Virus record (IMG/VR): IMGVR_UViG_3300021961_000444
Span: 1-29,304 of that record
Length of the DNA stretch: 29,304 nt
Reading direction: 5' to 3' (one strand)
Source of the DNA: a virus
Shown here: one piece after another, positions 2 to 9,078 of the stretch
Layout of the letters: the number at the start of each line of letters is the position of its first letter
How positions within the stretch are numbered: the first letter of the stretch is position 1
Notes under the pieces: model-generated
Told to the model about the DNA's origin: nothing
What the model saw: only the letters and a program-made list of their open reading frames with translations
Database searches by the model: none
Program-made: the position numbers and the translations under genes

Positions 2-958
2 ACTCCGATTCCCTCTGTGTCTCCTGAACCCACTCCCACTCCGTCCCCTGAACCTCAGCCAAGTCCAAGTCCTGAAGCGACACCCGAACCAACCCCTGAA
101 CCTGAAGTGACCCCCGAGCCTGAGCCAACTCCTCAGCCTTCTGAAGAATCTGAGGATGAACCTTCCGAGTCCCAAGAGGAATCCGACCCGACAAATCAAA
201 CACCTGAACCACAACCATCTGATGAACCTAGCCCTGAACCAACGCCAACAGAATCAGAATCCACACCAACGGAAGAAGAATCTTCAGACCCAACTCAATC
301 TGACGAGACCTCCGTTCCTTCTCAAGATGAAACGGATTCTGACACAACCGATACATCTCCCGATGAAAATACTTCCGACGATGAGCAATCCGAAGAAGAA
401 GCAGAGCCACAACAGATAGAAGAAGAACAGCCAACAAGTCCGTCCATTGAATCATTACCGACCTCCGAGATTGTCGAGAACATTTTAGAAGATGGAATTG
501 TAACTGCTTCCGAAGTTAGCGCCATCATTGAGAATGTTAAGGCTGATGGTAAATTAACTGAGGAAGAAAAGGAAGTTCTTGCCACGGCGATTGTTGCTCA
601 ATTTATGGATGAGCCAGCCGTGCCAGCATCAGCCCTCGAAGAAGCGGGTCTTGATTTCGCAGACCTTCCAGCCGAGACCCCAGTAGATGTCAGAACCGAC
701 GAAGATGGCAACCCTGTAATTATCACCGCTGAGATTGCCGACGCTTTAGAACTGCTCGCATCTCCAGCCGAAATCTTCCAAGCAATCTTTGAATCACCTG
801 CTCAACTTATTTTTGCTATCGGAAACCTCGGTGCCGATATGTCTGAGGAAGAAAGAGAAGAAGCAACTAAAACAATTATTGCCGCGACAATCGTAGGCAA
901 TATCGCAACGACTACAATGGCTACCGCAATCGGCGGTATCGGATATAGGAGACCATGA
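2..958 (+). CDS. Pro/Glu/Ser-rich protein with C-terminal hydrophobic segment (5' end outside window)
   Basis: The reading frame is open to the left edge, so only the C-terminal part is visible. The first 130 or so residues are low-complexity runs of Pro-Glu-Pro-Thr followed by Ser/Glu/Asp-rich sequence, typical of an extended acidic linker. A more normal domain follows, with an EF-hand-like stretch (DGIVTASEV, then ADGKLTEEEKE). The protein ends in a hydrophobic segment rich in Ala/Ile/Thr and the basic tail GYRRP. An upstream structural or surface-exposed domain is likely but not visible. The stop overlaps the next start as ATGA, so the two are probably translated together. I do not recognise the family with certainty; a virion-surface or membrane-anchored protein is a guess. 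Confidence 0.7.
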   Translation, partial: TPIPSVSPEPTPTPSPEPQPSPSPEATPEPTPEPEVTPEPEPTPQPSEESEDEPSESQEESDPTNQTPEPQPSDEPSPEPTPTESESTPTEEESSDPTQSDETSVPSQDETDSDTTDTSPDENTSDDEQSEEEAEPQQIEEEQPTSPSIESLPTSEIVENILEDGIVTASEVSAIIENVKADGKLTEEEKEVLATAIVAQFMDEPAVPASALEEAGLDFADLPAETPVDVRTDEDGNPVIITAEIADALELLASPAEIFQAIFESPAQLIFAIGNLGADMSEEEREEATKTIIAATIVGNIATTTMATAIGGIGYRRP

Positions 959-2128: not shown

Positions 2129-2179
2129 TTGCGTTATTAACCCCAGTTTGGTATACTGGCAATGTTCCGAGAGGGGGAC
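2129..2179 (+). promoter_or_regulatory. Promoter plus 5' hairpin leader (copy 1)
   Basis: TTGCGT (2129-2134), a 17-base spacer and TATACT (2152-2157) preceded by TGG form a promoter with an extended -10. The spacer holds TAACCCCAGT (2138-2147), and CCAGT pairs with ACTGG as an inverted repeat across the -10. Six bases after the -10, GTTCC (2164-2168) pairs with GGGAC (2175-2179) around the loop GAGAGG, which is the Shine-Dalgarno of the gene at 2183. The stem includes one G-U pair. Confidence 0.75.
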
Positions 2180-2182
2180 AAG

Positions 2183-2317
2183 ATGGAAAAGTGCGTGAAG
2201 TGCGGGGTCGCCGTGGAAAAGATGACAGTCTTTCCAAGGGGGCTTTGCTTGAGTTGCTACGCGGTGGAATTCGAACAGGAATTCCAAAGTGCGTTGAAGA
2301 TAGCGAGGTTGAAGTAA
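2183..2317 (+). CDS. 44-residue zinc-ribbon-like microprotein
   Basis: The product begins MEKCVKCGVAVEKM and has a second cysteine pair in GLCLSCYAVEF. The resulting CxxC-x16-CxxC layout is typical of a small zinc ribbon. It is the first gene behind hairpin-leader promoter 1, with the ATG three bases after the hairpin. Its TAA overlaps the ATG of the next gene by one base (TAATG). The role is unknown; such phage microproteins often bind host transcription or translation factors, but that is speculation here. Confidence 0.7.
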   Translation: MEKCVKCGVAVEKMTVFPRGLCLSCYAVEFEQEFQSALKIARLK

Positions 2318-2640
2318 TGGCTAAGAATCAGTTTAAGGGTAAGAACTTAAAACAGTTAGAAATTATTACAACTGCGATGAGCGGTGATAGAGGTGCCTTT
2401 GGCGCCGCTGGTGGTAATGCTTGGGCAAAGCCACAGAAAGCCGACTCGAGCGATTTATGTCAGGCTATTGACTGGTTGTTGAGTTATGAATGGGAAGATG
2501 ACTTAGAAGTTGGTCAGGCTTATATCAACGCCGCTGAGTTCTTGGCTGGAGAAGCCTTGAAGAAATTCAAGAAAGAGTATGCCAAGGCAAACGGTGTCAA
2601 AGTTTCCCAAGTCAAATTCAAGAAACAAGAGAATAACTAA
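2317..2640 (+). CDS. Hypothetical protein, 107 residues
   Basis: This soluble, charged protein starts MAKNQFKGKNLKQLEII and ends in a Lys-rich tail (VKFKKQENN). A Gly/Ala-rich stretch (GAFGAAGGNAWAKP) precedes a probable helical region. The start at 2317 is set by the TAATG overlap with the zinc-ribbon gene. A longer frame reaching back to 2191 merely shadows that gene. Its stop codon TAA is the first three bases of the conserved TAACTCCAGT box of the next promoter. I do not recognise the family. Confidence 0.65.
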   Translation: MAKNQFKGKNLKQLEIITTAMSGDRGAFGAAGGNAWAKPQKADSSDLCQAIDWLLSYEWEDDLEVGQAYINAAEFLAGEALKKFKKEYAKANGVKVSQVKFKKQENN

Positions 2641-2679
2641 CTCCAGTTGTGATATACTGGACTTGTCCGAGAGGAGGAC
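2638..2679 (+). promoter_or_regulatory. Promoter plus 5' hairpin leader (copy 2)
   Basis: TAACTCCAGT (2638-2647) is followed by the extended -10 TGATATACT, with TATACT at 2653-2658. CCAGT (2643-2647) and ACTGG (2656-2660) form an inverted repeat with an 8-base spacer. Six bases after the -10, GTCC (2665-2668) and GGAC (2676-2679) pair around GAGAGGA. The start codon of the next gene follows three bases later. No good -35 is visible. Confidence 0.75.
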
Positions 2680-2682
2680 AGA

Positions 2683-3009
2683 ATGTACGGAAACGCAATA
2701 GTAATAAATAAACATTACACATCTGACCTAAAGCGTGTGTTGCCATACGGTCAAACTAGATTGCTCAAGGAGATAGCAAAAGAAATTCAAACTGAAATCT
2801 CTGAAAAGTCTTACTACATCTACGCCCAAGATTATATCGAGGCGCTGTTACAACTGGAACAGATTGATGACCAGTATTACGCAGATAGCGCAGTTTCAAT
2901 CGTGAACTATCTGCTGGCTAATCTTCAATCTTGGAAAGGTGATAAGGCTCGAGCAATCAAGGCAGAACTTAAAACCATTCTCGATAACTTCCAAAAGGGG
3001 AAAAAATGA
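2683..3009 (+). CDS. Hypothetical helical protein, 108 residues
   Basis: The protein begins MYGNAIVINKHYTSDLK and looks mostly alpha-helical, with many Leu, Ala, Lys and Tyr residues and no membrane segment or cysteines. It follows hairpin-leader promoter 2 directly. The stop overlaps the next start as ATGA, so the short Cys-rich gene after it is probably coupled. No family was recognised. Confidence 0.65.
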   Translation: MYGNAIVINKHYTSDLKRVLPYGQTRLLKEIAKEIQTEISEKSYYIYAQDYIEALLQLEQIDDQYYADSAVSIVNYLLANLQSWKGDKARAIKAELKTILDNFQKGKK

Positions 3010-3128
3010 CCTGCGCTAATAACTGCGAGGCGATTGGCAGGAATCAGATAGATTCTGAGACCGCGCTTTGCGATGATTGTCTGAATGAATACATCGTCCT
3101 TAATCGTAAGAATAAGGTGAATTCTTAA
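3006..3128 (+). CDS. 40-residue Cys-rich microprotein
   Basis: The product begins MTCANNCEAIGRNQ and continues through ALCDDCLNEYIVLNRK. Four cysteines (C3, C7, C22, C25) give a CxxxC-x14-CxxC arrangement, suggesting a small zinc-binding knuckle. The start overlaps the upstream stop (ATGA). The stop TAA forms the first bases of the TAACCCTAGT box of the next promoter. Function is unknown. Confidence 0.65.
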   Translation: MTCANNCEAIGRNQIDSETALCDDCLNEYIVLNRKNKVNS

Positions 3129-3168
3129 CCCTAGTTATGATATACTCAGATTGTCTTAGAGAGGAGAC
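3126..3168 (+). promoter_or_regulatory. Promoter plus 5' hairpin leader (copy 3)
   Basis: TAACCCTAGT (3126-3135) precedes TGATATACT, with TATACT at 3141-3146. Six bases on, GTCT (3153-3156) pairs with AGAC (3165-3168) around TAGAGAGG. Relative to GTCC/GGAC in copy 2, the pair C-G has become T-A, a compensatory change. The ATG at 3172 follows three bases after the hairpin. Confidence 0.75.
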
Positions 3169-3171
3169 AAA

Positions 3172-3504
3172 ATGACAAAGCAAGAAGGTCGTCCGTTTGA
3201 CGAGGATGTTCTTATTGACCAAATTGGTCGCATGAATATCTTTGCTATCTCAGGTGGTCGTGTTGGTGTTACAAAAAATAACCAAGGCGAAACTGTTGAG
3301 ATTGAATTACCAGTTGGTTATGGTTATCGAGTTTCAATCAAATTAGGTTGGGACGATACATACACAGTTAGCCGTCAGTTTGTCCGTAAGGGCGTTGTTA
3401 CTGACAAGGGCACAATCGAAGGGGTCTACTGCGACCAAGTTGGCGAGATTGCTTACAAAGCATCTTGCTTTAGAAATGTTGAATTTGGAAAGGTGAGCGC
3501 ATGA
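3172..3504 (+). CDS. Conserved actinophage-type hypothetical protein, 110 residues
   Basis: The protein contains [13 protein letters not shown], a beta-rich middle ([18 protein letters not shown], then [11 protein letters not shown]) and a C-terminal [16 protein letters not shown]. This pattern resembles a short beta-rich protein I associate with mycobacteriophages, whose function is unknown. It is the first gene after promoter copy 3 and is coupled to the next gene by an ATGA overlap. There are no membrane segments. Confidence 0.7.
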
Positions 3505-3656
3505 CAATCGAAGAAGCAAAAAAAATTGTTGGCAATCAACCAACATGGGCATTGAAAAATATGGTCAAGGCTCTTAATATGTTGCCGTGGCTAAATACAG
3601 CGGAGGACGAACTGCGTCTCAAAGCGGCGAAGGTAGTTCTCAAATCAAGAAAGTAA
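3501..3656 (+). CDS. Conserved small hypothetical protein, 51 residues
   Basis: The sequence [20 protein letters not shown], with a following helical basic region ending VVLKSRK, resembles a short helical protein found in mycobacteriophages. The start overlaps the previous stop (ATGA), and GAAAGGTGAG lies upstream. Function is unknown. Confidence 0.65.
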
Positions 3657-3844
3657 GCAAAGCAAGAAAACAAATAGATTCTGTTTTGGCTCGCTACAAA
3701 GATATGCTGGACTTTGTTACAAATTCAACTGATGAAGAATTTGGCATTGTCTATGAGATTGCTCAGAAATCAAATAATGGAACACACATCAAGTTGATGA
3801 TGTCCCGAATCCAGTACCGAGGTTATTGCCAACTTTACCCTTAA
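3587..3844 (+). CDS. Possible small gene, start uncertain
   Basis: An open frame extends to the TAA at 3844. Its second half ([18 protein letters not shown], then [15 protein letters not shown]) looks like a genuine helical protein. The only start that includes all of this is GTG at 3587, which overlaps the previous gene in another frame and has no clear ribosome-binding site. The first ATG is at 3703 and would give 46 residues. The C-terminal half probably belongs to a real gene, but the start is unresolved. Confidence 0.4.
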
Positions 3845-3849
3845 TAATG

Positions 3850-3879
3850 TAAACTGGGGTTTAATATGAGAGAGGAAAC
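3850..3879 (+). promoter_or_regulatory. Divergent promoter/leader of the deacetylase-like gene
   Basis: TAAACT (3850-3855) is a plausible -10. The overlapping ACTGGGGTT is the reverse complement of the AACCCCAGT box seen upstream of other genes. GTTT (3859-3862) can pair with AAAC (3876-3879) around a 13-base loop containing GAGAGAGG. Spacing differs from the other copies (three bases instead of six after the -10), so this is a diverged or inverted member at best. Confidence 0.45.
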
Positions 3880-3880
3880 T

Positions 3881-4804
3881 ATGGAACAAGCAATTTTGGT
3901 TCATTCGCCTGAGTATGCGAATTGGGTCTTTGACGCAACGCATCCAACTCAAGGGCGAAGGTTTCTTCATGCCCGTAATCAACTTATGTTGGAAGCGCAA
4001 AGGCGTCGGCTCAATGTCTATGAGATAGAGCCTGATACCTGCTCAACCGATGACCTACACCTCGTTCACAGCATGGACTATGTTTTTGATGTAACTATCC
4101 GCGGTGAGAGCGATGAATGGGTAGGGCAACGCCACGACCTAGGCGACTTAGCCAAGATGTTTGTTAGCGGTACTTTGACTGCCCTTGATGTCTTACTGGA
4201 TAAGAAAACTCTACTCGCTGTAAATTTTGCTGGAGCAAAGCATCACGCGATGCGTGACTATGCCAGCGGATTTTGCGTGTTCAATGATTTCGCTGTCGCC
4301 GCGACTAAAGCCACGAATGAGTATGACCAGCGCGTTGCTATCTTTGATTGCGATGCCCACCATGGTGACGGAACTGAAATGCTTCTCAAATCCAATAAAA
4401 AAGTTCTGACTTATTCAGTTCATGAGTACGGGATTTTTCCAGGCACGGGTTTACTCAGCGATTGGAGAAATCGCGCCTACAACTTCCCGCTTGCTCCAAA
4501 GTCAGGCGATGATGCTTTACTCAGCGCTACCGAGGGTTTCCTAAAAGCGTGTGAAGAGTTTCAACCTACAATGATTTTTGTTGCCTGTGGCGCGGACGGT
4601 TTGACCGATGACCCACTATCCAATCTCATGTACACGCCCGAGGGTTATTTCAACTCAATGCGCCTTATCCGTGAACAGTTCTATAACCTGCCCATCCTCC
4701 TAGGTGGAGCGGGTGGATACCTACCCGATACGGGAACTCCCGAGGTTTGGAAAACCGCCACGCTTGGATTGATGGCTGTTCAAACCGAGGTTGTAAAACC
4801 TTAG
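3881..4804 (+). CDS. Histone deacetylase-fold hydrolase (AcuC/acetylpolyamine amidohydrolase type)
   Basis: This 307-residue protein has the signature residues of zinc-dependent class I/II deacetylases. KHHAM carries the two active-site histidines (H121, H122). GFCVFND follows them. DCDAHHGDGTE supplies metal ligands D158 and H160. CGADGLTDDPLSNL supplies D239. GGAGGY ends in Y280, the catalytic tyrosine position. Length fits single-domain bacterial members. Known substrates include acetyl-lysine, acetylpolyamines and other acyl amides; the substrate here is unknown. I start at 3881 because GAGAGG lies five bases upstream, whereas the ATG at 3866 sits inside that ribosome-binding region. No signal peptide is present, so it acts in the cytoplasm. 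Confidence 0.88.
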   Translation: MEQAILVHSPEYANWVFDATHPTQGRRFLHARNQLMLEAQRRRLNVYEIEPDTCSTDDLHLVHSMDYVFDVTIRGESDEWVGQRHDLGDLAKMFVSGTLTALDVLLDKKTLLAVNFAGAKHHAMRDYASGFCVFNDFAVAATKATNEYDQRVAIFDCDAHHGDGTEMLLKSNKKVLTYSVHEYGIFPGTGLLSDWRNRAYNFPLAPKSGDDALLSATEGFLKACEEFQPTMIFVACGADGLTDDPLSNLMYTPEGYFNSMRLIREQFYNLPILLGGAGGYLPDTGTPEVWKTATLGLMAVQTEVVKP

Positions 4805-4820
4805 AGGTTACGATTAGCAG

Positions 4821-5543
4821 GTGAATCCACCTAAAAAACTGCTGACCCAAAACAGCGAATTAAAGCCTGACGGAATCTTTAATTGGACTCTTCCTGCTTT
4901 CGCTATCAAATTAACTGACGGCTCTAACTTTAATGTTTGTCCTCAAGCGGGTGCGTGTGCCAGTTTTTGTTACGCAAGAAATGGAACTTATTTATTTCGT
5001 AATGTGCGTGGGCGTCATATACAAAATCTTGAATATGTAATGAACTATCCCGAGCAATGGTTTGAGCAGATGTTGGCTGAAGTCCAAAAGCCAAAGATGA
5101 TTGGAAAACACATTCGGATTCATGATGCTGGAGATTTCTTCTCTGAAGATTATCTAAACCTATGGTTGAGGATTGCTCGTTTAACTCCCGAGGTAACTTT
5201 CTATTGCTATACAAAAGAGGTCGCGTTATTTAAGAAAGTGGTTGAACCTGATTGCCCTGCTAACTTTCGTTATCTGTACAGTATGGGCGGAAAGCAAGAC
5301 CATCTAATAAACAAAGAGACTGACCGCCATGCTGAGGTCTTTCCTGATGATGTCGCTATCTTGGATGCTGGATACTCAAGTCAAGATGCTTCAGACCTAT
5401 TGGCTATCACTTTGCCAAGTAACAAAATCGGCATACCTGCCAACAACATCCGCCACTTTAATAAAAAGTTGGCTGGTCGAACTTTCGGCGATGTTCAAGA
5501 TGAGATTGACCAAAAGCGTAGAGTGAAACTTAGCGGGGCATAA
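4821..5543 (+). CDS. GP88-like Cys-rich phage protein
   Basis: The 240-residue product contains NVCPQAGACASFCYARNGTY near residue 40, a CxxxxxCxxxCYA cluster, and then IRIHDAGDFFSEDY and YCYTKEVAL. These match my memory of the phage 'gene product 88' family (mycobacteriophage L5 gp88 type). The cysteine cluster suggests an iron-sulphur or zinc site, superficially like radical-SAM enzymes. The biochemical role is unknown. The start is GTG at 4821; an in-frame stop two codons upstream rules out an earlier start. The stop is coupled to the next gene by TAATG. Confidence 0.65.
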   Translation: MNPPKKLLTQNSELKPDGIFNWTLPAFAIKLTDGSNFNVCPQAGACASFCYARNGTYLFRNVRGRHIQNLEYVMNYPEQWFEQMLAEVQKPKMIGKHIRIHDAGDFFSEDYLNLWLRIARLTPEVTFYCYTKEVALFKKVVEPDCPANFRYLYSMGGKQDHLINKETDRHAEVFPDDVAILDAGYSSQDASDLLAITLPSNKIGIPANNIRHFNKKLAGRTFGDVQDEIDQKRRVKLSGA

Positions 5544-6100
5544 TGACAACAATCCTCGCGGTTCAATATCCTAATAAGGCTGTCATTGGAGCCGACTCTC
5601 AAACTACTGGAGCAACTGGTCGCCTTGCTTCGCATAGTCAGATGACCAAGATTAGTCTGCGAGGAGAGTACATAATCGCAGGGTCGGGTGAATGTGCGCC
5701 TTGCGATATTGCTCAACACATTTGGGTTCCTCCAACTCCGACGGCTAAAGAATCAAAAGACCTTTATCACTTTATGATTTCAAAGGTTGTTCCGTCTTTG
5801 AAAGCCTGTTTCAAGGAGAACGAATATAAGTGGGATGTCGAGGATGAGGAAACGAAGTTTGCTTTCCTGATAATCATTGGCGGTCAAATTTTTGAAGTGG
5901 CAGATGATTTCTCTGTGACCTTAGATGGAAAAGGTTACTACGGAGTAGGGTCAGGGTCGGATTTTGGTATTGGCGCTCTCAATGCTGGAGCGACTTTGAA
6001 AGAGGCTCTCAAGATTGCCTCCGATAATGATGCCTTTACCTCCCCGCCCTTTATCTTTCACACTCAACATCAAAAGGTTGCCAACTCACCTAAGAAGTAG
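5543..6100 (+). CDS. HslV/proteasome-like Ntn hydrolase
   Basis: The protein begins MTTILAVQYPNKAVIGADSQ. After removal of Met, Thr1 is in place as the nucleophile and Asp17 falls exactly where HslV and proteasome beta subunits have it (GADSQ). K35 in MTKI matches the catalytic lysine region. IIAGSGECAPCD matches the buried glycine turn of the fold. Length (185) is close to HslV. The likely activity is threonine peptidase or a related amidohydrolase, possibly as an oligomer. No ATPase partner is visible here. The start overlaps the previous stop (TAATG). Confidence 0.72.
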   Translation: MTTILAVQYPNKAVIGADSQTTGATGRLASHSQMTKISLRGEYIIAGSGECAPCDIAQHIWVPPTPTAKESKDLYHFMISKVVPSLKACFKENEYKWDVEDEETKFAFLIIIGGQIFEVADDFSVTLDGKGYYGVGSGSDFGIGALNAGATLKEALKIASDNDAFTSPPFIFHTQHQKVANSPKK

Positions 6101-6105
6101 TATCC

Positions 6106-6156
6106 TAACCCTAGTTGTATAAAAAGGCAGAGAGACTGCTGGACGGATACAACTAG
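6106..6156 (+). promoter_or_regulatory. Promoter/leader with long inverted repeat
   Basis: TAACCCTAGT (6106-6115) and TATAAA (6118-6123) place this in the same promoter family, but the leader is different. CTAGTTGTAT (6111-6120) is repeated perfectly inverted as ATACAACTAG (6147-6156), just before the Shine-Dalgarno GGGAGG. Between the arms, GCAG (6127-6130) pairs with CTGC (6136-6139). The left arm lies in the promoter and may not be transcribed, so the large repeat may act as a DNA operator and the inner one as the RNA hairpin. Confidence 0.6.
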
Positions 6157-6168
6157 AGGGAGGTAACT

Positions 6169-6435
6169 ATGGATGATAATTTCGTAGTGCTTAGTTCAGG
6201 TGGTAATTATGGTGATTACGCAAAATTGCGTGGTTACTTAAAAGATGGACAGTTTGCTGTTATTAGATATAGGTCTTGGCTTTCTTGGTATAACCAAGCC
6301 CGATTCAGCAATAGCAGATTGAAAATTGAGGACTTATTGCCGAAACCAAAATCGGTTCATAATTCAGAACAAGAAGCGAAGCAAGTTTGTAAGGAACTTA
6401 ATTCTGCTTTGAAATCTTCTATCAGTCTAAGTTAA
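6169..6435 (+). CDS. Hypothetical protein, 88 residues
   Basis: This protein begins MDDNFVVLSSGGNYGDYAKL and has aromatic residues in its middle (RYRSWLSWYNQARF), followed by a charged helical C-terminus. It has a strong ribosome-binding site, GGGAGG, about five bases before the ATG. It follows the long inverted-repeat leader, so its expression may be controlled separately from the neighbours. No family was recognised. Confidence 0.6.
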   Translation: MDDNFVVLSSGGNYGDYAKLRGYLKDGQFAVIRYRSWLSWYNQARFSNSRLKIEDLLPKPKSVHNSEQEAKQVCKELNSALKSSISLS

Positions 6436-6446
6436 GAGAGGAATCT

Positions 6447-6635
6447 ATGAACGAAAACCAACAAGAACTGATTGACCAAAAATTCAGTCAGATTGTAAAC
6501 AAGCCAACAATCAAGATGAAGCGTCCACCATCAAAGTTCCCTGAACTTCGTTACCTATGGGGCGTTACCCTCTTGGGTAGTTTCATTCTTATTGTCATTA
6601 GTTCGGTAGTTACTACGATTATCGAAGCCCTGTAA
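6447..6635 (+). CDS. Single-pass small membrane protein, 62 residues
   Basis: A charged N-terminal region of about 38 residues (MNENQQELIDQKFSQIV) is followed by one hydrophobic helix (LLGSFILIVISSVVTTII) at the C-terminus. This suggests a tail-anchored protein facing the cytoplasm. GAGAGG precedes the ATG by five bases. It is the last plus-strand gene before the terminator at 6687. Function is unknown. Confidence 0.65.
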   Translation: MNENQQELIDQKFSQIVNKPTIKMKRPPSKFPELRYLWGVTLLGSFILIVISSVVTTIIEAL

Positions 6636-6686
6636 TCCACATACACAGATTACGCGGGACTCAAAGTAAGTTGGGTTGGGTAGGGG

Positions 6687-6719
6687 AATCACTCGGTAAC
6701 ATTCAGCCGAGTGATTTTT
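6687..6719 (+). terminator. Rho-independent terminator between convergent genes
   Basis: AATCACTCGG (6687-6696) pairs perfectly with CCGAGTGATT (6707-6716) across a ten-base loop and runs into TTTTT. It ends just before the stop of the minus-strand gene at 6721. The T run is on the plus-strand side, so it mainly ends plus-strand transcription from the block that starts at 6106. Confidence 0.85.
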
Positions 6720-6720
6720 C

Positions 6721-6918
6721 CTACTCAAATCTAAATTTTTCTCCAGCATCAAATAACTCTATTCCCAAGGCTTTATCAACAACATCAAATTGTTTTGCGT
6801 GATGTCCGCAAAAGTATAAATCTCCATTGATAAAACTCGCCCTAACTCGGGCTTGAACTCCACATCTATCACATCTGTCAAGCGCTGTTAGATTGGCTCT
6901 TGAAATTGTGGCTATCAT
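6721..6918 (-). CDS. DUF7455-like zinc-binding protein
   Basis: The 65-residue product has LTALDRCDRCGVQARVRAS and then LYFCGHHAKQF. C16, C19, C37 and H39/H40 give a CxxC...CxHH zinc site. This is the pattern of small DUF7455 proteins common in Actinobacteria and their phages, which is part of the case for an actinobacterial host. The function is unknown. The start overlaps the stop of the gene before it (ATGA), so it is the last gene of the 7650-6721 operon. Confidence 0.75.
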   Translation of the reverse strand: MIATISRANLTALDRCDRCGVQARVRASFINGDLYFCGHHAKQFDVVDKALGIELFDAGEKFRFE

Positions 6919-7049
6919 TTTTTCCTCTCAGGCGGATATTTTTCAATCCGTTGGACAATTCTTCCATCCTTGCGAACTCTAACTATCCATCCATCTTTAA
7001 TTTGAATAGGGTTGAATGGGTCGCATCGTTTGTATGAACCGCTACTCAT
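6915..7049 (-). CDS. Small basic hypothetical protein, 44 residues
   Basis: The product begins MSSGSYKRCDPFNPIQIKDG, includes a likely beta-hairpin (WIVRVRKDGRIVQRI) and ends in a basic tail (PPERKK). The start at 7049 overlaps the TGA of the upstream gene (ATGA). A longer in-frame start at 7127 exists but would lie inside that gene. No family was recognised. Confidence 0.6.
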   Translation of the reverse strand: MSSGSYKRCDPFNPIQIKDGWIVRVRKDGRIVQRIEKYPPERKK

Positions 7050-7222
7050 ATTGACCACCATCCTTGATATTGCCTGTTTGGGTTTGCTTCTTTCCATTCT
7101 GTCATTAACTGATTTTGTTTTACCCAATCAATTTCATGAGTTGGTTTGGAGCAACTGGAACAAATCTCTTCATCTTGATTTTTATAGATGTGTCCACAAA
7201 TAACCGTTGTGGATTCGGACAT
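7046..7222 (-). CDS. 58-residue Cys-rich microprotein
   Basis: The protein begins MSESTTVICGHIYKNQDEE and continues CSSCSKPTHEIDWVKQNQ. C9 with H11 and the CSSC pair (C21, C24) suggest one zinc site. The C-terminus is Trp-rich (YQGWWSI), a style I associate with small actinophage proteins. The gene is tied to its neighbours on both sides: its ATG overlaps the preceding TAA by one base, and its TGA overlaps the next ATG. Confidence 0.65.
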   Translation of the reverse strand: MSESTTVICGHIYKNQDEEICSSCSKPTHEIDWVKQNQLMTEWKEANPNRQYQGWWSI

Positions 7223-7650
7223 TACTTTAGCCGTCCTGCGTTTTTATCGGTAACTGGACCTCCGACAATCCAAGCCCGACAAGTACGAGCGCTCGCGCAT
7301 TTGAAATCGAAAGCCTCGCAATATCCCAACTCTCCAGCCTCGGTGACATCCCACGCGGTTTGGCGGGTATCGCCTTGGGCTAGACCCCCCTCGATACATT
7401 GGAGCATCGCTGAGGTTTGGATAAAGGCGGCGCAATTTCCACACCGCTGTTTCTTGGCTTCCTCGGCGCTAACGCCCCATTCAGCCCCCATCTTCGCCCA
7501 GTAGTCATCATTAGGCTCGGAAGGGTTGAGAGGACCGTAGGAAGCCGTTTCTATGGCTTTGGCACGGTTCTCAAGGTTAGCCCTTACATCCTGCGTCGCT
7601 GTTGGGCAAGTAGCCTTTAATAGTTTGGAGACTGCTGGCGTAAGGGTCAT
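7222..7650 (-). CDS. Cys-rich phage protein, 142 residues
   Basis: The N-terminal half is ordinary and hydrophilic (SYGPLNPSEPNDDYWAKMGA). The second half has spaced cysteines: RCGNCAAF, LQCIEGG, LGYCEAFDF, KCASARTCRAW. Six or more cysteines in this arrangement suggest a metal or iron-sulphur site. I recall similar CGNC...C...C..RTCRAW proteins in tailed phages without a settled function. It heads a four-gene minus-strand operon and seems to be expressed from a leaderless start. Confidence 0.65.
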   Translation of the reverse strand: MTLTPAVSKLLKATCPTATQDVRANLENRAKAIETASYGPLNPSEPNDDYWAKMGAEWGVSAEEAKKQRCGNCAAFIQTSAMLQCIEGGLAQGDTRQTAWDVTEAGELGYCEAFDFKCASARTCRAWIVGGPVTDKNAGRLK

Positions 7651-7656
7651 GGCGAA

Positions 7657-7662
7657 ATTGTA
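7657..7662 (-). promoter_or_regulatory. Probable leaderless -10 box for the 7650-6721 operon
   Basis: TACAAT on the minus strand ends six bases before the ATG at 7650, and there is no Shine-Dalgarno between them. This spacing would put the transcript start on the A of the start codon, the leaderless arrangement common in Actinobacteria. No convincing -35 was found. Confidence 0.5.
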
Positions 7663-7682
7663 CCCTGTGTCGGGATGATTAT

Positions 7683-7725
7683 TAACCCCCGTTGTGTTAT
7701 ACTAGGGGTGTCCTGAGAGGAGGAC
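7683..7725 (+). promoter_or_regulatory. Promoter plus 5' hairpin leader (copy 4)
   Basis: TAACCCCCGT (7683-7692) precedes TGTTATACT, with TATACT at 7698-7703 as an extended -10. Six bases on, GTCCT (7710-7714) pairs with AGGAC (7721-7725) around exactly GAGAGG. The start codon is at 7731. Here the outer repeat is CCCC...GGGG rather than CCAGT...ACTGG. Confidence 0.75.
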
Positions 7726-7730
7726 GGAAA

Positions 7731-7949
7731 ATGAAAAAGAAAGACATTAAAGTTGGCGGTGTTTACAACTTAAAGTTCTACAAAACATCGACTGTTCCAG
7801 TCAGAGTTGTGAAACTTGCTAATTACAAAGCAATTATTGAATATGTAGAAAAAGAAACTTTGAAAGTATTGCCTGTGCCAAATCCAAGAACTTACGGAGC
7901 GGTCACAGAGGCAGTTCCTTACAATCTCATTCTTAGTGAATGTGTTTGA
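7731..7949 (+). CDS. Hypothetical basic protein, 72 residues
   Basis: The protein begins MKKKDIKVGGVYNLKFYKTS and looks like a small beta-barrel (VPVRVVKLANYKAIIEYV). A KOW/SH3-like or Tudor-like fold is possible but unproven. The start at 7731 was chosen because it lies directly downstream of the hairpin carrying the ribosome-binding site. An upstream in-frame start at 7692 would lie within the promoter. Confidence 0.6.
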   Translation: MKKKDIKVGGVYNLKFYKTSTVPVRVVKLANYKAIIEYVEKETLKVLPVPNPRTYGAVTEAVPYNLILSECV

Positions 7950-7995
7950 TTTCCTAACCCCAGTAAGATATACTGGAACTGTCCGAGAGGAGGAC
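7946..7995 (+). promoter_or_regulatory. Promoter plus 5' hairpin leader (copy 5)
   Basis: TTGATT (7946-7951), a 17-base spacer and TATACT (7969-7974) make a standard promoter. TAACCCCAGT (7955-7964) lies in the spacer. CCAGT and ACTGG form the inverted repeat over the -10. Six bases further, GTCC (7981-7984) pairs with GGAC (7992-7995) around GAGAGGA. The ATG at 7999 follows. Confidence 0.78.
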
Positions 7996-7998
7996 GAG

Positions 7999-8238
7999 AT
8001 GGCGATTCAGATAGAAAACAACGAGGTATTAGATTTCGTTGAATATGTTCACACTTTCTACAATCCTGAAACTGGTGTTTTCCCAATCAAGGGCGCAACT
8101 GTTGAGGCGATTACGAAAGCGGTTAAAACTTATGTCGGAGCAATTCACCAGCAAACTACATGGGGCGGTGGCGATAGCGTCGATAGAGAGCGCGTTAGAG
8201 ACATCATTCTTCAAAACGGAGGGGAGATAATCGCGTGA
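7999..8238 (+). CDS. Hypothetical protein, 79 residues
   Basis: The product begins MAIQIENNEVLDFVEYVHTF and is acidic and soluble, with a GGGDSVDRERVRDIILQNG segment near the end. The start at 7999 sits behind hairpin-leader copy 5; an in-frame ATG at 7936 lies before the promoter and is rejected. The stop overlaps a GTG start of the next gene (GTGA). No family was recognised. Confidence 0.62.
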   Translation: MAIQIENNEVLDFVEYVHTFYNPETGVFPIKGATVEAITKAVKTYVGAIHQQTTWGGGDSVDRERVRDIILQNGGEIIA

Positions 8239-8630
8239 GTACAACAATCGAGAAAGTCAAGGTTCAGCCAAAGGTGGGCGACATCCTTTACTCATCATGG
8301 GGCTACGACCAAACCAACATTGATTTCTACAAAGTTGTCAGGGTCAGCGAGTCCTCTGTATGGATTCAACAAATCGGCAAGAAGGTTGTCGAGATAACTG
8401 GATGGGCGCATCAAAATGTGGTGCCAGTTGATTCCGCTGAATATCAGGTAAGAAACTGGGACAACGAAAAAGATGAATGGGACAATGTAAATACCTTCAT
8501 CACAAAGACTCATCCAATACAGCGCAAGAAGATTCAGCCTTACGGAGATGCTTACGGCGTCAGCCTTAATTCATTCTCCTCGGCTTGGTTGTGGGACGGC
8601 AAGCCAAAGGGTCAAAGTCAAACTTGCTAG
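8235..8630 (+). CDS. Conserved actinophage-type hypothetical protein, 131 residues
   Basis: The protein contains KVGDILYSSWGYDQTNIDFY near the N-terminus and VWIQQIGKKVVE, a pattern I have seen in hypothetical proteins of mycobacteriophages and plasmids. The GTG start overlaps the upstream TGA and has GGGGAG upstream. A YGVSLNSFSSAWLWDG segment near the C-terminus is rich in aromatic residues. Function is unknown. Confidence 0.65.
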   Translation: MSTTIEKVKVQPKVGDILYSSWGYDQTNIDFYKVVRVSESSVWIQQIGKKVVEITGWAHQNVVPVDSAEYQVRNWDNEKDEWDNVNTFITKTHPIQRKKIQPYGDAYGVSLNSFSSAWLWDGKPKGQSQTC

Positions 8631-8635
8631 ATTAC

Positions 8636-8680
8636 TAACCCCAGTTGTGATATACTGGACTTGTTCTTAGAGAGGAGAAC
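8636..8680 (+). promoter_or_regulatory. Promoter plus 5' hairpin leader (copy 6)
   Basis: TAACCCCAGT (8636-8645) precedes TGATATACT, with TATACT at 8651-8656. CCAGT and ACTGG form the inverted repeat. Six bases later GTTCT (8663-8667) pairs with AGAAC (8676-8680) around TAGAGAGG. Compared with copy 2, the stem has changed on both sides while pairing is kept. The ATG is at 8683. Confidence 0.78.
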
Positions 8681-8682
8681 AA

Positions 8683-9078
8683 ATGAAAGTCAAAGTGACA
8701 TGGAAAGCGTTCGGTAACAAAATCGAACAAGGTCGTTTTGTATCAAGCGTCGAGTTCGACATTTTTGATTACAAAATCCCTGCTGACAAATATCCTGCGT
8801 TGCTCAATGCGATTTACAGAGCAACCAATCTTCAAAGCGATTTAGAAGAGTTCAACGGTTCAGCGTTTGAGATTTATCTATGGAAAGTCATCGAAGCAAG
8901 ATTGGCTCCCGATAGAACTCACACATCGCTCTCGGTCGGAGACGAAATCGAAATTGAGGGTCAGACTTATGTTTGCGCTGACATCGGTTGGCTCAAGGCT
9001 GAAAAAGCCGACATCAAATTTCTTCCAAGCGAATACGGTTTAGGTGCCGTGTTCTCAGTCAGAGAGAAGGTGAAATAA
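8683..9078 (+). CDS. Hypothetical protein, 131 residues
   Basis: The product begins MKVKVTWKAFGNKIEQGRFV and contains a probable beta-barrel segment near the end (LSVGDEIEIEGQTYVCADIG). It is soluble and slightly acidic. It is the first gene downstream of hairpin-leader copy 6 and abuts the next gene with no gap. No family was recognised. Confidence 0.62.
   Translation: MKVKVTWKAFGNKIEQGRFVSSVEFDIFDYKIPADKYPALLNAIYRATNLQSDLEEFNGSAFEIYLWKVIEARLAPDRTHTSLSVGDEIEIEGQTYVCADIGWLKAEKADIKFLPSEYGLGAVFSVREKVK

Follow-up and report, generated by a model that had tools for sequence, protein, structure and literature searches.

Covarying hairpins with the Shine-Dalgarno sequence in the loop at predicted 5' ends of phage mRNAs

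A 29.3 kb virus record (IMG/VR IMGVR_UViG_3300021961_000444, GC 44%; the whole stretch of 29,304 nucleotides is called the window here) carries six leaders of one design. In each, a promoter-like TATACT is followed at fixed distance by a short inverted repeat that encloses a Shine-Dalgarno (SD) sequence, and a start codon comes shortly after. We wondered if these repeats are RNA hairpins maintained by selection, where in the transcript they would lie and what they might do for the phage.

Hairpin leaders in the window

All six leaders described in the first-pass annotation are present, and they precede short + strand genes of unknown function. Their -10 hexamers lie at 2152, 2653, 3141, 7698, 7969 and 8651, and the first stem G stands exactly six bases further on in each; stems of 4-6 bp surround GAGAGG or AGAGAG, with the start codon two to five bases on. 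The hairpins, all on the + strand, are GTTCC-GAGAGG-GGGAC (2164-2179, start codon 2183, -7.2 kcal/mol), GTCC-GAGAGGA-GGAC (2665-2679, start codon 2683, -6.3 kcal/mol), GTCTT-AGAGAG-GAGAC (3153-3168, start codon 3172, -4.9 kcal/mol), GTCCT-GAGAGG-AGGAC (7710-7725, start codon 7731, -7.8 kcal/mol, z -3.7), again GTCC-GAGAGGA-GGAC (7981-7995, start codon 7999, -5.9 kcal/mol) and GTTCTT-AGAGAG-GAGAAC (8663-8680, start codon 8683, -5.8 kcal/mol), the last being the one whose orthologues were examined. Four stems agree with those listed before, while the third and the sixth are one pair longer owing to an extra U-G. The SD is held mostly, but not entirely, in the loop: the last one to three bases of AGGAGG/AGGAGA sit in the right arm.

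The pattern of TATACT, six bases, GT and AC retrieves five of the six leaders in forward orientation, the sixth having a longer stem; no match was found in the window on the reverse strand or with a reversed-pattern control. Predicted energies of single leaders range from -4.9 to -7.8 kcal/mol with modest z-scores (-0.8 to -3.7). Since the scores are modest, folding of single sequences is not the evidence, and it is statistics of the whole family that carry the case.

Related leaders in uncultured phages

The terminase encoded in the window is about 53% identical to that of Arthrobacter phage Kovu and to those of other Laroyevirus-type phages; judged from this similarity, the phage is very probably an actinophage. 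Two scans of viral contigs were performed. The first, in which both stem and SD were part of the pattern, retrieved 34 contigs. The second used a promoter-only pattern blind to the stem and yielded at least 119 loci, revealing the same leader in front of many genes of related, uncultured actinophages. Several of the related contigs are 58-60 kb long, similar to the genomes of Kovu and Salgado (about 60 kb), and one of 58,661 bases has the same match near both ends, in the manner of a terminal repeat. No DNA match to cultured close relatives was found in phage records, and SD-in-loop sites of Kovu form no clear family. A genome scan for a host or prophage gave a single match, in a Bacteroidota genome, which looks like chance and was discarded.

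Among leaders from promoter-only loci, stems of 4 bp or longer, located where the transcript is predicted to begin, are present in 44 of 85. SD is missing from 18 of 136 distinct sites, most of which we take to be chance hits, the pattern being so short. Sites with SD fall into two classes: those with 4-6 bp stems whose first base is the seventh past the -10, and stemless leaders such as TAGTGTACAAGGTCGAGAGAGGAAATGACATG. In the full set 18 arm pairs were catalogued, loop length varies from 5 to 8, and the stem ends two to five bases before the start codon in nearly all leaders.

Further variants accompany this family. A large hairpin-free class, TGTACAAGG...GAGAGAGG, shares the same promoter, and one phage uses both kinds. 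At several loci (L007, L014, L023, L030, L031 and others) a promoter palindrome replaces the SD hairpin, e.g. CCAGTTGTATAACCTAACAACTGGAGAGG. In five leaders preceding genes of about 100 aa (L043, L084, L096, L106, L112), the -10 is followed by a block resembling GGGGTT, and variable stems (AACTCT/GGGGTT, CTCC/GGAG) enclose CGAAAGG; these may possibly constitute a second covarying SD-in-loop family.

Covariation of the stem arms

Because MAFFT alignment lines up the SD and lets the arms slide, pairing was assessed by permutation of arms and not by column-based counting of pairs. Sequence to the right of the SD core was re-dealt among distinct leaders in 3000 shuffles. The first set included loci found by the stem pattern, so the test was repeated on a stem-blind set of 74 distinct combinations, with those loci and the window itself left out. 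With Watson-Crick pairs only, stems of 4 bp or more occur in 17 of 74 combinations, as compared with 6.9±2.1 after re-dealing, and with G·U allowed they occur in 33 of 74 as compared with 24.4±2.1; in both cases none of the 3000 shuffles reached the observed value. The larger set agrees (27 vs 11.8±2.6 strict, 45 vs 33.2±2.4 with G·U). Covarying hairpins with SD in the loop, as claimed in the first-pass annotation, thus hold in relatives that were fetched without regard to the stem. The observation is confirmed, and its structural interpretation is supported.

Total stem length in the stem-blind set is 187 with neither G·U nor A·C, 267 with G·U and 217 with A·C. That G·U lengthens stems far more than A·C points to RNA of the coding strand, i.e. 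the mRNA, rather than a dyad in DNA. Changes of both arms or of wobble partners that keep pairing are also seen within single gene families: GTTCTT/GAGAAC stands along with GTTCTC/GGGAAT, and GTTC/GAAC with GTTC/GGAC. In a 60% identical orthologue of the gene starting at 8683, GTTCTT/GAGAAC is replaced by GTCC/GGAC.

Promoter and predicted transcript start

TATACT and the stem had been recognised before, but the upstream promoter, the strongest conserved element of the leader, had not been described. A block AACCC(C/T)AGTTGTGATATACT precedes each of the six leaders and is often located directly 3' of the stop codon of the preceding gene. In the window these blocks are AACCCCAGTTTGGTATACT (2139-2157, comprising upstream half-site, TG-N extended -10 and TATACT), AACTCCAGTTGTGATATACT (2639-2658), AACCCTAGTTATGATATACT (3127-3146), AACCCCCGTTGTGTTATACT (7684-7703), AACCCCAGTAAGATATACT (7956-7974) and AACCCCAGTTGTGATATACT (8637-8656), all on the + strand. 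The TG-N extension is present in 121 of 135 leaders, and no -35 TTGACA is evident in these promoters.

A candidate operator surrounds the -10: half-site AACCCCAGTT precedes it, and AACTGGGGTT follows it in some leaders (window promoters 2139-8656; 3852-3861). This arrangement suggests a single DNA-binding regulator of many phage promoters. A second promoter class, AAACCCCC-N-TTTGATATAATGGGT, precedes leftward genes and has no hairpin (- strand 2042-2020 and - strand 19609).

Where would transcription start? Position 6 after the -10 is T in 89% of leaders and position 7 is a purine in 92-100%, in hairpin and non-hairpin leaders alike. Such a T-purine step is the usual signature of transcription start. 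Immediately outside the stem no covariation was detected, neither for the -1/+1 pair (69 vs 68.2±1.6 shuffled) nor for the -2/+2 pair (54 vs 52.3±2.9). This boundary, the T-purine step and the usual spacing from the -10 together place the first stem G at +1, and transcripts probably begin there; the start site proposed in the first-pass annotation gains support.

We also asked how far SD-in-loop stems depend on the promoter. At promoter-linked starts they are found in 76 of 114 cases, as compared with 46.5±3.4 after swapping, whereas at starts without the promoter they are at chance level (53 of 426 vs 52.2±6.9). A general habit of placing the SD in a loop at all gene starts was thus rejected. 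With the excess limited to starts that have the promoter, the hairpin is a property of 5' ends and not of ribosome binding sites in general.

These results bear on the possibility that the hairpin has no function as RNA at all. The left arm (GTCC, GTTCT) would then be an initially transcribed sequence that is simply preferred, or would belong to a protein site, and it would pair only because its pyrimidines face the purines of the SD. Re-dealt arms do pair often, non-hairpin leaders start differently (TGTACAAGG) behind the same promoter, and neighbouring sequence partly resembles an inverted operator site. On the other hand, pairing exceeds that of re-dealt arms in every set, and the wobble asymmetry in favour of the mRNA strand, the absence of covariation immediately outside +1 and the limitation to promoter-linked starts also count against it. 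We regard this explanation as quite unlikely.

Folding and possible function of the leaders

In 91 hairpin leaders that were folded, the SD core is predicted to be unpaired with probability 0.92 and the first three nucleotides with 0.04-0.05. In non-hairpin leaders the corresponding values are 0.76-0.80 and 0.74-0.78. Pairing at the very 5' end is reported to slow the route of decay by RppH and RNase E or J (review PMC3997798). Because of this effect, and of the predicted open SD and closed 5' end, we propose that the leaders are compact expression cassettes, in which a 5'-terminal hairpin shields the mRNA end and displays the SD; we would give this reading a probability of roughly 60%.

The extended -10 promoter (AACCCC-AGTTGTGA-TATACT) would place the start of transcription at the seventh base past the -10, and the mRNA would fold at once over its first 15-18 nucleotides. 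The 5' arm of this hairpin would be the terminus of the message itself, with the start codon two to five bases behind the stem. The paired end would block host enzymes that attack single-stranded 5' ends (RppH, then RNase E or J), and the SD, fixed in the open loop, could be bound by 30S subunits before the short stem melts. Stabilisation of mRNA and display of the SD as functions are, like the transcript start itself, inferred. In known 5'-terminal stem-loops that stabilise mRNA (PMC3997798), as in the predicted transcripts here, the first nucleotides form a stem and leave almost no single-stranded 5' end. What sets the present stems apart is that the SD lies within them and that, in one phage group, they form a recurrent family of gene leaders.

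Alternatively, the hairpin could be a translational switch on which temperature, or an RNA-binding protein of phage or host, acts so that the genes are regulated together, up or down. The stem varies and the loop (GAGAGG/AGAGAG) hardly does, which would suit a loop-reading protein; the right arm includes one to three SD bases; and mean minimum free energy changes from about -7 at 37 °C to about -11 at 20 °C. The SD alone explains the invariant loop, however, as GAGAGG also stands in hairpin-free leaders. Loop length is variable, and the SD core is predicted to be 92% open at both temperatures, so there would be little to switch. We find a switch unlikely and consider it, like the absence of RNA function, a weaker model than end protection combined with SD display.

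Several observations weigh against our proposal. With pyrimidines prevailing in left arms and purines in the SD, much pairing is expected by chance: in the hairpin class alone 23 of 23 leaders pair, as compared with 17.4±1.2 after re-dealing and a maximum of 22. Part of what looks like pairing is due to this bias in composition. The shuffles take no account of phylogeny, and some gene families appear to have exchanged whole leaders, possibly by recombination; the counts thus overstate the number of independent compensatory events. Outside the stem, the -3/+3 pair is in excess (24 vs 13.2±2.5), mostly owing to one CTTG/CAAG family. Finally, of 132 distinct class I leaders that share the promoter, 45 lack the hairpin, and hairpin-free leaders stand before orthologues of hairpin-bearing genes in many gene families, among them the MAQKAVKK, KKVYEVE and RPFNEDE families. 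Stems not conserved in homologous leaders, which had been named in advance as an argument against RNA structure, were in part encountered. With about one third of same-promoter leaders lacking it, the hairpin is not essential.

Comparison with start-associated sequences

The start-associated sequences (SAS) of cluster K mycobacteriophages, together with their extended form (ESAS), had been named as the closest known parallel, with a similar plan in a different sequence, and this comparison is apt (PMC3203893; PMC11373665). Many SASs are dispersed over the genome, each only a few bases upstream of the start codon (in most cases ATG) of a non-structural gene; they have symmetric ends and an SD core, and about half of them are preceded closely by a promoter-like block with inverted repeats (2011, PMC3203893). 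No closer precedent for SD-in-loop hairpins or for repeated start motifs in other actinophages emerged from literature searches, and Rfam gave no match at curated threshold in the window.

Could both be true homologues in other sequence dress? They have in common the order of promoter block with inverted half-sites, small symmetric SD element and ATG, as well as association with non-structural genes, intergenic position and an optional upstream block (PMC3203893; PMC11373665); location a few bases before the start codon is likewise found here. In other respects they differ. Five cluster K genomes contain 75 exact copies of the 13-mer GGGATAGGAGCCC; deviations are few, most of them break outer pairs and two are compensated. 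SAS is thus one fixed, almost invariant 13-mer, whereas many stems covary here. With up to two deviations allowed, none of the six leaders resembles the 13-mer beyond the AGGAG-like core, their arms being GTCC/GGAC and relatives. Of the 22 SASs with a recognisable -10, 19 have it 17-23 nt upstream, which means that SAS is not 5'-terminal; here the distance is 6 nt. ESAS promoters have -35 TTGACA and 17-bp imperfect inverted repeats, while the present ones have an extended -10 and AACCCCAGTT half-sites of at most 10 bp (e.g. block AACCCCAGTTGTGATATACT). Nor was any DNA match found in the phage collection. Since sequence, spacing and promoter type all differ, the present elements are not SAS; homology of the two, already disfavoured, appears very improbable.

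Other leaders and neighbouring genes

The leader of the deacetylase gene (TAAACTGGGGTT, 3850-3883, + strand; SD GAGAGG at 3870-3875, likely start codon at 3881) had been regarded as a seventh, looser copy. This did not hold: its predicted fold has an open centroid and an energy of only -0.2 kcal/mol, and its GTTT arm is located at the predicted start of transcription or ahead of it. Instead, it carries the reverse complement of the upstream half-site (AACTGGGGTT). The gene itself (3881-4804, +) belongs to the histone deacetylase family (PF00850, E 4e-56), and relatives of it are scarce among phage records (Microbacterium phage Magritte, 37%; Rhodococcus phage E3).

Another hairpin around SD, TTTTAC-TAGGAG-GTAAAA, precedes the major tail protein gene (- strand, about 29223-29206). 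It is unchanged in close relatives and broken in more distant ones, and its left arm apparently lies within the end of the upstream open reading frame (ORF); for these reasons it was not counted.

The leader of the gene at 6169 (window 6107-6171; -21.4 kcal/mol, z -4.9) contains an inverted repeat AACCCTAGTTGTAT...ATACAACTAG with a second small hairpin nested inside it; AGAGGGAGG and ATG come next. Its relatives have a compact CCAGTTGT-N8-ACAACTGG directly before AGAGG.

Besides terminase, genes of the window include those for tape measure, ParB-like, Erf-like and Mu-Gam-like proteins. The ORF at 17-955 (+) begins with long Pro/Glu/Ser/Thr-rich repeats of a low-complexity protein and is followed by a small, hydrophobic-looking ORF (955-1125). 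A phage protein similar to the HslV peptidase family is encoded at 5543-6097 (+; phrog_1040, E 1e-26).

Implications

Function of SAS has stayed unexplained since 2011, partly because SAS hardly varies and its sequence could not separate a hairpin from a protein site. In the leaders described here, stems have been varied by nature with pairing kept, so the hairpin hypothesis is directly testable with ready-made variants, and natural hairpin-free leaders of orthologous genes provide ready controls. As compact promoter-plus-leader parts, the set may work in low-GC actinobacteria. It is conceivable, though we consider it rather unlikely, that an SD-in-loop hairpin at the 5' end is a general device of actinobacterial phages for marking mRNAs for preferential translation and survival. 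The present leaders and cluster K SAS would then have reached it separately, selection acting on shape in the former and on sequence in the latter. For possible roles of SAS, the present elements offer a good test provided by nature.

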